From assembly GCF_000243275.1 (NCBI RefSeq), contig NZ_CM001437.1:1140175-1204174 (forward strand): DNA of 64,000 bases, given 5' to 3'. The position numbers and the translations under genes are program-made. The stretch's first letter is position 1. Each line of letters begins with the position of its first letter. A model generated the notes under the pieces. That model worked only from the letters and a program-made list of their open reading frames with translations, was not told where the DNA came from and did not search any database. The stretch is from Myroides odoratus DSM 2801. GTDB taxonomy: Bacteria > Bacteroidota > Bacteroidia > Flavobacteriales > Flavobacteriaceae. Shown piece after piece: positions 35,658 to 58,934 of the stretch.

Positions 35658-36821
35658 TTATTCTTCAAAATAAAATTGCAGCGGTTGGCGCAAGTTATAA
35701 CGAGAAGACATTACCTCTCCATACGCCCCTGCAGAACGAATAGCAATCAAATCTCCGCGAACTAATACAGGGAGCTCTACATTCTTACCAAAGCAATCGC
35801 TACTTTCGCAAATAGGCCCCACTACTTCATACTTTTCTGTTGCCTCAATCTCAGATTCTCCTTGCTCCAAATGCTGTATTTGATGATAGGCTTGATACAG
35901 TGCTGGTCGCAATAGCTCAGTCATACCTGCATCGAGAATGGCAAAATTTTTATTCACGCCTTTTTTGATATACAATACACGGCTGATTAAGCTCCCACAA
36001 TTGGCTACTAATGATCGTCCTAATTCAAAATGCACTTGTTGCCCTGGCTTGGGTTCCAAAAAACGATGGAACAACGCAAAAAAGTCGACAAAATCTACGA
36101 TTGCTTCGCCATCTGGATCTTTGTAATTAATACCAACCCCTCCTCCTACATTCAAGATTGGCACTACAATTCCCCTTTCAATAAACCACGTATTCCATTC
36201 ATTAACTTTTAAACACAAACGTTTAAAAACCGTCCAATCCGTAATTTGAGACCCCACGTGAAAATGCAATCCTACCAAAGCTAACGCACTTTCATTAGAA
36301 TGAATCAGGGTCAAGCAATCCTCCAATTCATGCATCATGATACCAAATTTATTCTCATCTAACCCTGTAGTGATATAATGATGGGTATTCGCATCAATAT
36401 TAGGATTTATGCGCAAAGCAACTGAAGCATGTGTTTCCATTTCTCTAGCAATGGCATCAATGACTTGCAATTCTTCTAGTGATTCTACATTAAAAGCCAA
36501 TATGCCTTGGCTCAGTGCCACTCGGATTTCCTTTTCTGTTTTTCCTACACCTGCAAAAACAATTGATTTCGCTTGAAATCCATGGGCAATTGCCGTTTCT
36601 ATTTCTAGACCACTGACACAATCGGCTCCCAAGCCTAAGGTGCTAATTTCTTGCAGTATTCTGGGGTTATTATTCGCCTTTACTGCATAATGAATGTGAA
36701 ATCCCCATTGATCTGCAGCAGTTTTTGCTGCAGATATCGTTGCTCTGAGCAAAGGCAAATCGTAGTAATACAAGGGTGTTTCTTCCTTTTTTAGTTGTTC
36801 TAATATCGCAGTTGAAATCAT
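35658..36821 (-). CDS. lysA: diaminopimelate decarboxylase
   Basis: Last step of lysine synthesis: PLP-dependent decarboxylation of meso-diaminopimelate. The PLP Lys is in IHYAVKANNNPRIL (near residue 46). HVGSQITDW, ELGRSLVANCG and the active-site CESSDCFGK complete the fold IV pattern. The frame runs up to 36920 inside lysC, but the ATG at 36821 (MISTAILEQLKKEETPLYYYDL) lies 10 bp after the lysC stop and gives the normal length (387 aa). Second gene of the lysC-lysA operon controlled by the leader described upstream. Confidence 0.95.
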   Translation of the reverse strand: MISTAILEQLKKEETPLYYYDLPLLRATISAAKTAADQWGFHIHYAVKANNNPRILQEISTLGLGADCVSGLEIETAIAHGFQAKSIVFAGVGKTEKEIRVALSQGILAFNVESLEELQVIDAIAREMETHASVALRINPNIDANTHHYITTGLDENKFGIMMHELEDCLTLIHSNESALALVGLHFHVGSQITDWTVFKRLCLKVNEWNTWFIERGIVVPILNVGGGVGINYKDPDGEAIVDFVDFFALFHRFLEPKPGQQVHFELGRSLVANCGSLISRVLYIKKGVNKNFAILDAGMTELLRPALYQAYHQIQHLEQGESEIEATEKYEVVGPICESSDCFGKNVELPVLVRGDLIAIRSAGAYGEVMSSRYNLRQPLQFYFEE

Positions 36822-36831
36822 AGTTCTCTCT

Positions 36832-38160
36832 TTAAAATAATCGGTGATGTAAAGCGCGTAAGGCTTCAATTTTGTATTTAGACGGAAGCAAAAGTGAAAT
36901 ATTATGCTCACTTCCTCCATAGGAAATCATGCGAATCGGAATGTGTTTTACCGCTTCCGATACAAGAGTTGCATATCCATTCTTATTTCGCTTAAAATCT
37001 CCTACAATACAAACAATAGTCTGATCCTCATCCACTTCCACCTTTCCAAAATGGTTCAATTCTGCTATAATTGCCTGTAAATGTGTACGGTCATCCAACG
37101 TCAATGAAACCGCAACCTCAGAAGTGGTAATCATATCTATGGGTGTTTTATAACGTTCAAATACTTCAAAAACACGTCTTAGAAAACCATATGCTAGTAA
37201 CATACGCGAAGAGTGAATGCGAATAGCTGTGATATTATCCTTCGCAGCAACAGCCACTATTTCATCGGGATGATCAAACGTCGAGGAGATTAAAGTGCCT
37301 GGCGCCTGAATATCCAATGTATCGAGTAGTCGAACAGGAATATTGGCTTTTTGCGCTGGAAAAACACTTTGAGGATGTAATATCTTCGCACCAAAATAGG
37401 CTAATTCAGCAGCTTCATCAAAACTCAAATGAGCAATGGGTTTCGTATTGGATACACAACGGGGATCATTGTTGTGAAAACCATCAATATCCGTCCAAAT
37501 TTGAATCTCTTCTACCTTTAATGCTGCTCCAATTAAAGAAGCAGTATAATCAGATCCCCCTCGTCTTAGGTTGTCTATTTCGCCAAAAGCATTTCTACAA
37601 ATGTAACCCTGTGTAATAAACAAGGTAGCTGTCGGAAATTGAGTGAGCTTATCATTTAATTGTTGTTGAATATAAGGCAAATCAGGTTCCTGATCTTCAC
37701 TGATTCGCATAAAGTCTAATGCAGGAAGCAAAACGGATGCAATCCCTTTTTCTGTGAGATACTGATGAAAGAGCGCCGTTGACAACAATTCGCCTTGTGC
37801 TAAAACCCAACGTTCTTCTACCGAAGTAAACAAATCATTTCCTAACTCATCCAGCAGCGTAAAATGACTTTGGATTAGCGTATGTCCCTTTTCTTTTCCG
37901 TCCGCAGTAACAAAAAGCGTATCCACAAATACTTGATAAGATTGAAATAGCTGTTGAATCATTTGCCGCGCCTGAGCTACTTCTCCTTGTGCATAGTGTG
38001 CTGCAATCGCCACTAATGCATTTGTAGTTCCTGCCACTGCAGATAAAACGACCAACTGTCGATCGCTCTTTTGCGATTGGATAATAGGCCATAACTTTTC
38101 GAATCGCTCCGGACTTCCCACAGAAGTTCCTCCAAATTTTAATACTTTCATATCTTTCAT
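36832..38160 (-). CDS. lysC: aspartate kinase (lysine-pathway)
   Basis: Phosphorylates aspartate at the entry to Lys/Thr/Met synthesis. KFGGTSVG near residue 8 is the kinase signature. NLRRGGSDYTASLIGAALKV binds ATP and Asp, and two ACT-type regions after about 300 bring allosteric control. It is a monofunctional 442-residue enzyme. Start ATG at 38160 or at 38151 (MKVLKFGG); the latter is closer to family practice. The first start codon directly follows the T-run of a terminator hairpin, and a Lys-rich leader peptide lies upstream, so lysine-responsive attenuation is expected. Cotranscribed with lysA. Confidence 0.95.
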   Translation of the reverse strand: MKDMKVLKFGGTSVGSPERFEKLWPIIQSQKSDRQLVVLSAVAGTTNALVAIAAHYAQGEVAQARQMIQQLFQSYQVFVDTLFVTADGKEKGHTLIQSHFTLLDELGNDLFTSVEERWVLAQGELLSTALFHQYLTEKGIASVLLPALDFMRISEDQEPDLPYIQQQLNDKLTQFPTATLFITQGYICRNAFGEIDNLRRGGSDYTASLIGAALKVEEIQIWTDIDGFHNNDPRCVSNTKPIAHLSFDEAAELAYFGAKILHPQSVFPAQKANIPVRLLDTLDIQAPGTLISSTFDHPDEIVAVAAKDNITAIRIHSSRMLLAYGFLRRVFEVFERYKTPIDMITTSEVAVSLTLDDRTHLQAIIAELNHFGKVEVDEDQTIVCIVGDFKRNKNGYATLVSEAVKHIPIRMISYGGSEHNISLLLPSKYKIEALRALHHRLF

Positions 38161-38168
38161 TTACACAC

Positions 38169-38205
38169 AAAAAAAAGGGTTTGTCGCGATGACAAACCCT
38201 TTGTT
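38169..38205 (-). terminator. attenuator terminator in front of lysC
   Basis: On the minus strand AAAGGGTTTGTC - atcgc - GACAAACCCTTT is followed by further T and then GTGTGTAA and the lysC ATG. It lies inside the lysC leader, not after a gene on that strand, so its role must be regulatory. Confidence 0.85.
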
Positions 38206-38238
38206 ATTTTATTTCATTATAAAAAATAAGGAGATTGC

Positions 38239-38295
38239 TCACGATGCTTGACGTAAGTTTATCTTCTTTCCCTTTTTTATAACGATAAATTGCAT
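38239..38295 (-). CDS. lysine leader peptide of the lysC-lysA operon, 18 aa
   Basis: The minus-strand ATG at 38295 opens an 18-codon frame, MQFIVIKKGKKINLRQAS, ended by TGA. Four of codons 7-11 are Lys (AAA AAG GGA AAG AAG). It lies about 15 nt after the transcription start predicted from TATATTTG at 38325-38318, has a purine-rich ribosome-binding stretch (AAAAGAAGAAAA), and ends 34 nt before the terminator. The arrangement is that of classical amino-acid attenuators such as those of his or thr operons. A possible antiterminator pairs GATAAAC (38263-38257) with GTTTGTC in the 5' arm of the terminator (one G-T). No lysine riboswitch consensus was recognised. Confidence 0.78.
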   Translation of the reverse strand: MQFIVIKKGKKINLRQAS

Positions 38296-38317
38296 TTTTC
38301 TTCTTTTTAGTATGCAA

Positions 38318-38325
38318 CAAATATA
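38318..38325 (-). promoter_or_regulatory. -7 promoter box for the lysine leader and lysC-lysA
   Basis: TATATTTG on the minus strand, 22 bp before the leader ATG. No exact -33 TTG is present. Confidence 0.55.
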
Positions 38326-40839: not shown

Positions 40840-40850
40840 TATCATCATAA

Positions 40851-40900
40851 TAGGCAATGATGTCTGCCTCGAACCGCCTTGTAGCTGATGACGTCTAGTA
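40851..40900 (+). promoter_or_regulatory. fluoride riboswitch (crcB motif)
   Basis: The conserved parts appear in order: GGCAATGA - TGTC - TGCC (the GGCGATGG...CGCC arm), then AACCGCC, then AGCTGATGACGTCTAG (consensus GGCTGATGACRCCTAC). Placement between a promoter and a CLC-F-type gene is the usual context. No T-run follows, so translational control of the ATG at 40934 is more likely than termination. Confidence 0.88.
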
Positions 40901-40933
40901 TACTATAGTTTATATAATCTATACAAAGCCGTT

Positions 40934-42151
40934 ATGAATACAAGTAAAAAAATTAAAGACTTTCTTTTCCATTCCCCGAACAAACCTTTCGTTTGGGTCG
41001 TTTTAAGTTTACTTATTGGTAGTTTAATTGGTAGTGCCTCTGCCCTATTTCTATTTGTTCTCGAATACGTTACAACAGTACGTCAAGCAAATCCACTTTT
41101 CTTATTTGGACTTCCTGTTGGAGGATTTTTTATTGGCTGTTTGTACTACTATTTTGGGGGGAATGCAAACAAAGGCAATAACTTATTAATTCAAGAATAC
41201 CATCACCCGGTAGCAAAAATACCATTTAAAATGGCTCCTTTTGTTTTAGTAGGTACTTGGGTTACCCACTTATTTGGGGGCTCTGCTGGTAGAGAGGGAA
41301 CTGCGGTACAAATGGGAGGTGCAATCGCTGATCAATTCACAAAACTGTTCAAACTAGGGGCTACAGATCGACAAGCGATGCTCTTGATGGGGATTGCAGG
41401 CGGATTTGCTTCTGTTTTTGGAACTCCATTAGCCGGAACGGTATTCGCTTTAGAGCTCATGGTTGTTGGTCGTAATAAGTACACCTATATCTTACCTTTG
41501 CTTCTTACTTCCATTGTTTCGCATTATGTATGTTTAGCTTGGGGTATCACGCATACAGTTTATACAGTAGATTGGGTTCCTACTTTGGAACTCTATACAC
41601 TACTGAAGGTGAGTACAGCAGGTGTGTTATTTGGGTTAACAGCCATTCTATTTGTGAAATCAACAGATACTATTTCTCATTTTGCATCCAAGTATATTAG
41701 CTATCCTCCTTTGCGTCCATTTTTGGGTGGGATTCTCTTTCTGCTTCTCTTTTATTTGGTTCAAGATACGCGATTCTTAGGATTGGGGGTAGAAACTATT
41801 GTTGATTCCTTTCATACCTCGCAAACCTACCATGTATTTTTACTTAAAATAGTATTTACAGCTCTTACATTAGGTGCAGGCTTCAAAGGTGGAGAAGTCA
41901 CCCCTTTATTCTTCATTGGTGCTACCTTGGGTAGCTTTTTAGCCCTATACCTTCAATTGCCTATCGGATTTGTGGCTAGTTTAGGATTTGTTGCTGTGTT
42001 TGCAGGTGCTACAAAAACACCACTGGCGTGTATCTTTATGGCTACTGAATTATTTGGAAGTGAAACACTTATCTACACGGCTCTTTGTTGTCTAATCGCC
42101 TATTTCATCAGTGGTAAACACAGCATCTATAAATTTCAATTATACCTATAA
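40934..42151 (+). CDS. fluoride/proton antiporter, CLC-F family
   Basis: The 405-residue CLC protein has GGSAGREGTAVQMGG (residues 115-129), GGEVTPLFFIGA and GATKTPLACIFMATELFG. In place of the GSGIP selectivity motif of chloride channels it has GGNANKGNNLLI (residues 76-86), which I associate with the CLC-F branch. With the fluoride riboswitch directly upstream, its role as fluoride exporter protecting enolase and pyrophosphatase is well supported. About ten membrane helices; no cytosolic CBS domains. Confidence 0.92.
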   Translation: MNTSKKIKDFLFHSPNKPFVWVVLSLLIGSLIGSASALFLFVLEYVTTVRQANPLFLFGLPVGGFFIGCLYYYFGGNANKGNNLLIQEYHHPVAKIPFKMAPFVLVGTWVTHLFGGSAGREGTAVQMGGAIADQFTKLFKLGATDRQAMLLMGIAGGFASVFGTPLAGTVFALELMVVGRNKYTYILPLLLTSIVSHYVCLAWGITHTVYTVDWVPTLELYTLLKVSTAGVLFGLTAILFVKSTDTISHFASKYISYPPLRPFLGGILFLLLFYLVQDTRFLGLGVETIVDSFHTSQTYHVFLLKIVFTALTLGAGFKGGEVTPLFFIGATLGSFLALYLQLPIGFVASLGFVAVFAGATKTPLACIFMATELFGSETLIYTALCCLIAYFISGKHSIYKFQLYL

Positions 42152-58854: not shown

Positions 58855-58934
58855 TATATTTGCACTCGCTTTAAACTAACCTCTGGCGAGGTCCGTGCAT
58901 GTTGGTTTAAATTAATTAATTATTTTTTTCAGAA
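58855..58934 (+). promoter_or_regulatory. rplS promoter and structured leader
   Basis: TATATTTG (58855-58862) is the -7 box. The leader holds ACCTC - tggc - GAGGT inside the outer pairing TGCAC ... GTGCA, followed by GGTTTAAA complementary to upstream TTTAAAC. This is the kind of structure used for feedback by ribosomal protein L19. I recall an L19 leader motif being described for Flavobacteria but cannot check the match. Confidence 0.6.

Follow-up and report, generated by a model that had tools for sequence, protein, structure and literature searches.

A very probable lysine attenuator ahead of lysC in Myroides odoratus, with the architecture of the Bacteroid-trp leader

Amino acid attenuators are known from Proteobacteria (the trp, his, thr, leu and phe leaders), in which a ribosome translating a leader peptide rich in the operon's product selects between alternative hairpins and thereby decides whether a terminator forms before the first gene. 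We know of no lysine member among them. To our knowledge, lysine is a riboswitch ligand rather than a leader-peptide signal, and the lysine riboswitch is a direct lysine aptamer that works without a leader peptide. Vitreschak and colleagues, writing on attenuators in 2004, are said to have named Bacteroidetes as well.

Closer to the organism studied here, the excerpted text of PMC9723704 gives clues for leader-peptide attenuation of amino acid operons in Flavobacterium psychrophilum; lysine and lysC are absent as words from the main text of that paper. The closest described system is Bacteroid-trp, which is tabulated in the accessible part of PMC2864571, and the lysC gene of Shewanella is tabulated with a lysine riboswitch in the corresponding part of PMC2659441. 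No lysine leader appears in the parts consulted of PMC8632094 and PMC4833913. More generally, a lysine leader peptide or attenuator was not found in the full-text literature, a scope that excludes subscription papers and supplements and so leaves its absence unproven.

Here we describe a leader ahead of lysC in Myroides odoratus DSM 2801 that we read, with a probability of roughly 0.87, as a ribosome-mediated transcription attenuator sensing charged lysine tRNA, on a chassis homologous to that of Bacteroid-trp. It has a short frame with clustered product codons and an intrinsic terminator before the first gene, and it shares with the proteobacterial attenuators the product-rich peptide, the alternative hairpins and the position of the terminator. 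Compared with them by mechanism and not by sequence, it stands apart in its antiterminator strand, whose partner is the loop and 3′ arm of the terminator. With the proposed F. psychrophilum systems (PMC9723704, in part) it has the phylum and the proposed class of mechanism in common. With the lysine riboswitch RF00168 it shares the link to lysC, the riboswitch being found in other phyla (Shewanella in the part of PMC2659441 seen), but it lacks the aptamer fold. What is new is the amino acid, lysine, and a descent evidently shared with a known leader for tryptophan; the mechanism is of a known kind.

The leader and its locus

The window, that is, the whole stretch of 64,000 nt analyzed here, covers positions 1,140,175 to 1,204,174 of NZ_CM001437.1 (assembly GCF_000243275.1), and all coordinates below are those of the window. 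On its minus strand, the leader region opens with the box TATATTTG (38318 to 38325), which we take to be the −7 box of the flavobacterial TAnnTTTG type; no clear −33 box was seen. There follows a leader peptide gene of 18 codons plus TGA (38239 to 38295), encoding MQFIVIKKGKKINLRQAS, with its ATG at 38295 and its stop at 38241 to 38239. Codons 7 to 11 (38263 to 38277) read Lys-Lys-Gly-Lys-Lys. A 12-bp intrinsic terminator hairpin, AAAGGGTTTGTC-ATCGC-GACAAACCCTTT, with the loop ATCGC, lies at 38174 to 38202, and its run of eight T at 38169 to 38176. A sequence-only reading of this DNA had placed the box, the frame with Lys codons at positions 7, 8, 10 and 11, and the 12-bp terminator with its T-run ahead of lysC, and all of them were found where it had put them. 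There are 684 ATG-started frames of 10 to 30 codons in the window, nested starts included; four of these contain a stretch of 5 residues with at least 4 Lys, and the lysC leader is the only one of the 684 in which such a Lys cluster occurs and a perfect hairpin with a T-run follows the frame within 110 nt.

The downstream gene, lysC (36832 to 38160, minus strand), encodes an aspartate kinase of 442 amino acids that matches TIGR00657 above its cut-off. Its start is the ATG at 38160 or possibly 38151, the equivalent of the latter being used by most relatives. The best model for the protein is the lysine-sensitive aspartokinase NF006570 (391 bits, under its cut-off of 455). The next frame on the same strand, lysA (35658 to 36920), encodes a diaminopimelate decarboxylase that matches TIGR01048 above cut-off. 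As listed, it overlaps the end of lysC by 89 bases (36832 to 36920); the LysA model match starts at residue 30, and the true start is therefore probably just past the lysC stop.

Two other RNA elements were seen in the window, both on the plus strand. A fluoride riboswitch (RF01734, 43.6 bits) at 40844 to 40904 stands directly ahead of a frame at 40934 to 42151 that weakly matches ClC-type chloride channel models, under their cut-offs. An L19-Flavobacteria ribosomal protein leader (RF03130, 36.8 bits) lies at 58877 to 58904.

Relatives of the leader were sought through LysC. Searching the genomes of named species gave 557 stretches encoding a relative, of which the best 80 loci were taken; the closest named relative among these is Myroides sp. 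1354, with a LysC 88% identical. The leader is present in all 21 Flavobacteriales lysC loci among these best 80 of 557 (Myroides, Paenimyroides, Chryseobacterium and relatives) and absent from the other 59, mostly Sphingobacteriaceae (for L106, only 15 nt of upstream DNA was at hand). Further lysC leaders were found in genomes G018, G448 and G507. R1, a covariance model built from lysine leaders only (the 21 Flavobacteriales loci plus two), scores 111 to 142 bits directly ahead of lysC in exactly those 21 of the best 80 loci and at most 22.8 bits in the remaining 59, R1 having been trained on the leader-bearing ones. Of the other lysC loci among the best 80 of 557, 58 could be read upstream of the gene, and in 7 of these a loose criterion for Lys clusters fired there; these seven frames were rejected as leaders, as they have no features in common with the lysC leader. 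In all 21 Flavobacteriales loci of that set, a TAnnTTTG box ends 17 to 25 nt ahead of the leader start.

The sequence-only reading had asked for an alignment of lysC upstream regions, and in that alignment the clustered Lys codons are kept, codons 2 to 6 vary and the terminator stem covaries. Among 26 distinct homologous frames, Lys stands at codons 8, 10 and 11 in every one and at codon 7 in 23. The differences at codons 8, 10 and 11 are synonymous only, with AAG/AAA counts of 16/10, 25/1 and 9/17, respectively. Codons 2 to 6, 16 and 17 are the variable ones; codons 14, 15 and 18 and the stop encode RNA segments 1 and 2, and their residues are kept. At the aligned place, 18 codons ahead of the stop, 25 of the 26 frames have a start codon (24 ATG and, in L169, one GTG). 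The remaining one, L168, has no start codon there, its nearest TTG lying two codons upstream. In loci L033, L034 and L042, another ATG lies in frame as much as three codons farther upstream, still after the −7 box.

One could imagine that the basic run KKGKK stalls ribosomes irrespective of lysine shortage, so that lysC would be gated by general translation stress. Runs of basic residues can slow ribosomes, and the Lys codons here are indeed clustered, with Gly, Ala, Ser, Val or Asp standing between the pairs; runs of Lys codons could slow ribosomes at any level of lysine. We think this improbable. AAA and AAG interchange freely at codons 8 and 11, and the homologous trpE leaders discussed below carry Trp codons in the same register ahead of the same chassis; the shared logic would therefore be that the codons whose supply is sensed correspond to what the operon makes.

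Alternative helices and a predicted switch

Three alternative helices can be recognized in the leader RNA. Segment 1 (CTTACG in the DNA, 38252 to 38257, minus strand as for all segments here) is identified from the alignment and from a C-G to U-A exchange relative to the trp leaders; its RNA, CUUACG, pairs with CGUGAG of segment 2 (TCGTGAG, 38238 to 38244), which holds the stop codon. In the conserved antiterminator, UCGUGA of segment 2, lying over the stop codon, pairs instead with UCRCGA of the terminator (TCGCGA in the window, 38184 to 38189, part of the loop and 3′ arm), an assignment drawn from the alignment and the folding model. A second antiterminator helix, UCCU:AGGA, joins segment 2b (TCCTT, 38228 to 38232) to AAGGG at 38201 to 38197. 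The terminator partner is UCACGA in general; the window has UCGCGA and L049 has UCAUGA, and both preserve the pairing through G-U pairs. In L031, the loop appears by eye to be rearranged, with UCGCGA three bases off, so that this row fails in the fixed register and pairs only when shifted.

For the terminator, 100% of cells are paired, five stem pairs are changed on both sides, and none of 500 shuffles matched the covariation score; the number of further pair types is ordinary (444 of 500 shuffles). For the antiterminator, 94.7% of cells are paired, versus 28 to 72% for slid versions, and there are 11 doubly changed cells, a count reached by 0 of 500 shuffles. These 11 cells come from two pairs of the UCCU:AGGA helix, with U-A replaced by C-G at columns 65/101 and C-G by U-A at 67/99, and throughout these exchanges the pairing within the terminator, to its 3′ arm, is preserved. 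Of the five shuffle measures taken for the antiterminator, two are ordinary: 362 of 500 shuffles reach its number of doubly changed pairs, and 489 of 500 its number of further pair types. The outermost antiterminator pair is broken in 8 of the 22 rows. The hairpin of segments 1 and 2 is nearly invariant among lysine leaders, with one G-U change, and is little tested because it hardly varies. Taken with the folding described below, comparison supports a predicted antiterminator that would exclude the terminator. A different antiterminator had been proposed in the sequence-only reading, GATAAAC pairing with GTTTGTC; this was dropped, as in alignment A2 it is paired in 42.9% of cells, inside the 24.7 to 58.4% range of slid versions.

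The same comparisons bear on two further readings. A lysC terminator that always acts, with a short frame that arose by chance in A-rich DNA, would fit an A+T-rich genome in which Lys codons are common (window GC 0.357) and the strength of the hairpin; this reading is very unlikely, given the invariance of Lys 8, 10 and 11 with synonymous differences only, the aligned start codon in 25 of 26 frames, and the compensatory changes in the antiterminator. Equally unlikely is that the region binds lysine or a protein directly, in the manner of a riboswitch, with the peptide incidental: a lysine riboswitch is listed at the Shewanella lysC (PMC2659441, in part), but the leader has no Rfam match at gathering score, none of 40 genomes has a lysine riboswitch above cut-off, and the structure that can be supported is confined to the three alternative helices. 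At a loose threshold (E up to 5), Rfam gave 23 weak and mixed matches on the leader, all under their cut-offs, RF01692 not among them. In the RF00168 search of the 40 genomes, the organism's own genome had 0 matches and G007 one below cut-off (23.7 bits); 4 of 14 control genomes were positive.

The reading of the leader as a ribosome-mediated attenuator was examined with a folding model. Transcripts were folded up to the terminator loop, with the bases from 15 nt upstream to 12 nt downstream of the A-site, the footprint of a ribosome, made unpairable; the count was restricted to segment 2 pairing, and L174 was left out. With the A-site at codons 7, 8, 9, 10 and 11, the antiterminator has a probability of at least 0.5 in 28, 25, 28, 28 and 28 of 28 lysine leaders, respectively. 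It is favored in 28 of 28 at codons 12 to 14 and in none at codons 15 to 19. Controls with segment 2 and the spacer shuffled favor it in 2 to 5 of 56 at codons 7 to 11. A ribosome stalled at codons 7 or 8 leaves segment 1 free as a competitor. Without a ribosome, 9 of 28 lysine leaders still favor the antiterminator; in the other 19, where it is disfavored without translation, the terminator would thus be the default.

In the model the trp leaders switch at this point too, with the antiterminator favored in 38 of 38 at codons 9 to 14, in 1 of 38 at codon 15 and in 0 of 38 at codons 16 to 19. Without a ribosome, 25 of 38 favor it, so that their untranslated state differs from that of the lysine leaders. 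Another measure, in which pairing to the Trp codons was counted as well, was discarded: at codons 17 and 19 it keeps 26 and 30 of 39 trp leaders over 0.5, and it therefore fails to show a switch. When the complete terminator is present, it wins at equilibrium at every ribosome position tried in four leaders (three lys and one trp). The switch must therefore be kinetic and depend on timing, as classical attenuation likewise does.

We imagine the following course of events. Transcription would begin just past the −7 box, and a ribosome would start on the 18-codon leader. When lysine is plentiful, the ribosome would reach the stop codon inside segment 2; with segment 2 covered, the terminator would form and transcription would end ahead of lysC. 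When lysine is scarce, the ribosome would wait at Lys codons 7 to 11, far enough upstream for segment 2 to stay free. The free UCGUGA could then pair with UCRCGA in the loop and 3′ arm of the terminator, aided by UCCU:AGGA, and this antiterminator would form while the terminator is still being made, allowing RNA polymerase to continue into lysC. The sequence-only reading had also taken the Lys-codon leader and terminator for a ribosome-mediated attenuator of lysC, and the synonymous-only changes at the Lys codons, the compensatory changes in terminator and antiterminator, and the footprint folding all argue for it. From these comparisons and the model, the lysC leader is real and conserved, and it is very probably a lysine attenuator.

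A chassis shared with the tryptophan leader

The lysine leader resembles the Bacteroid-trp leader closely. Searching 395 genomes of the order with R1 gave a match at E up to 0.01 in 102. The best 30 R1 loci comprise 10 lysC leaders and 20 trpE leaders with three Trp codons at positions 9 to 11 (for example, MKITMNNTWWWKNLRQTS); these trpE leaders score 71.5 to 78.7 bits with a model made from lysine leaders only. The chassis with Trp-Trp-Trp stands before trpE in 20 of 20 same-genus loci examined. The genes trpE and trpB were named from sequence, and for L131 and L251 also by model search; the 400 residues tested for TrpE in that naming score under the full-length cut-off. Among 40 hand-picked R1 hits of lower score, 28 are trp leaders, and the 12 others bear no relation, most being terminators that belong to other genes. 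A chassis pattern at the DNA level matched 24 of 299 genomes of the family, at 21 trp and 3 lysC leaders, and the reversed pattern, used as a control, had one match. Alignment A3 includes loci found with this pattern, in which TTACG, CGTGA and GTCNTCNYGAC are fixed, and its lack of variation in these columns is therefore partly built in.

Both the Flavobacteriaceae forms of Bacteroid-trp and the lysine leader have a peptide ending in LRxxS-stop with the stop codon inside segment 2, the segment 1 motif YUUACG, in most cases the terminator loop GUCAUCACGAC, and a −7 box before the leader. Lys and trp leaders alike mostly have their last regulatory codon at position 11 and their stop at position 19. 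The trp leader L161 and the lys leader L040 are identical over 20 of 20 nt, CTTACGTCAAACGTCGTGAG. They differ in their codons and genes: Trp codons 9 to 11 before trpE or trpB in Bacteroid-trp, and Lys codons 7, 8, 10 and 11 before lysC in the lysine leader. More distant trp leaders of Bacteroidia keep the logic with other letters, by eye UUCAC:GUGAA in L232 and UCACGUU:AACGUGA in L241. The letter-for-letter likeness of the lys and Flavobacteriaceae trp leaders would therefore reflect common descent and not shared constraint, and points to an ancestry of the chassis common to the lysine leader and Bacteroid-trp.

In Rfam, the trp leader is RF01692, Bacteroid-trp. The lysine leaders fall outside this family both by score, being under its gathering cut-off of 49 bits, and by content, having Lys codons and lysC where the family has Trp codons and trp genes downstream. 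At E up to 1, RF01692 had no match in six lysine-leader sources, two of which are the same locus. Across 14 leader-bearing genomes at E up to 10, its matches included the lysine leader in 7, with scores from 24.0 up to 38.9 bits against the cut-off of 49; the other 7, the window's genome among them, were without such a match. Four of the listed scores are 38.9 (G448), 36.4 (G018), 34.2 (G507) and 31.4 bits (G020), and three are at chance level, 27.5 (G411), 24.0 (G067) and 24.0 bits (G242). In G448, G018 and G507 the lysine leader is the top RF01692 match of the genome (34 to 39 bits). It also ranks first in G411 and G242, at noise-level scores, and in G020 it comes second to that genome's own trpB leader.

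Leaders with Trp-Trp-Trp also stand before trpB in two Myroides-type genomes, L150/L251 in the window's genome (C1:2951186-2951343) and L285 in G020. A shift of the chassis relative to the Trp codons carries their frames, of 31 and 28 codons, past the segment 2 stop. Eleven trp leaders from Flavobacteriaceae and other Bacteroidia (L183, L192, L193, L202, L205, L220, L232, L236, L239, L241 and L247) seem by eye to retain the three-way pairing although their letters are quite different, such as GUGAGA:UCUCAC, UUCAC:GUGAA and AACGUGA:UCACGUU. For RF01692, L202 and L247 are barely above the cut-off, L236 is barely under it and L232 is unlisted, so the family could be rebuilt more broadly.

Spread with lysC and what it may mean

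LysC of this type is found at E up to 1e-90 in 36 of 395 genomes of the order. The leader is present in all 10 of those 36 in which LysC identity is at least 66%; of the other 26, the 22 whose DNA upstream of lysC was examined show none (in G052, about 100 upstream bases are masked). In a midpoint-rooted LysC tree, reduced to 65 of 109 rows by dropping three in four non-Flavobacteriales rows (from the best 80 of 557), the 30 leader-bearing rows form one clade, with support of 100/97 and in all 200 bootstrap trees. This clade adjoins leaderless LysC of Sphingobacteriaceae; the tree carries a long-branch warning that includes L168. Within it, the Chryseobacterium proteins are nested inside Flavobacteriaceae rows, next to Paenimyroides, which suggests that leader and lysC were transferred jointly. 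The leader-bearing Chryseobacterium loci are L038 to L041, L044, L048 to L050, L052, L065 and L066; G369 and G408, of the same family as Chryseobacterium, have a distant LysC without a leader.

The leader had initially been assigned to a lysC-lysA unit. The lysC part of that assignment stands, as the leader goes with lysC; the lysA part holds in Myroides-type loci, where lysA follows lysC, but for the Chryseobacterium and Paenimyroides loci among the best 80 of 557 a search of the 3 kb beyond lysC gave no lysA. The leader tracks lysC rather than lysC-lysA.

The lysine leader probably arose once, on this LysC clade, from a leader of the Bacteroid-trp type by codon replacement. The direction, from trp to lys, is suggested by the wider spread of the trp form. 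We also think it fairly likely that attenuators can be re-keyed in evolution in this way: a Bacteroid-trp-type leader would have been copied before lysC, where Lys codons would have taken the place of its Trp codons, with their distance to the switch fixed and the switch itself unaltered, giving the first lysine-sensing leader peptide, which would later have moved with lysC into Chryseobacterium. No third amino acid was seen on this chassis, there being Lys and Trp versions only among the loci examined (the pattern in 299 genomes of the family, R1 in 395 of the order and R2, a model of the chassis, in 395 of the class, with R1 and R2 matches examined in part).

If this reading is true, lysine joins the amino acids sensed by ribosome-mediated attenuation. 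The lys and trp leaders, as a pair on one chassis, are a natural experiment, in which the codon register, the stop position, segment 2 and the terminator loop would make up a generic switch and the codons would supply its specificity. One prediction is that a few codon swaps would give a working attenuator a new amino acid. For the Flavobacteriaceae and Chryseobacterium genomes that bear this lysC, the leader is a likely point of control by lysine.
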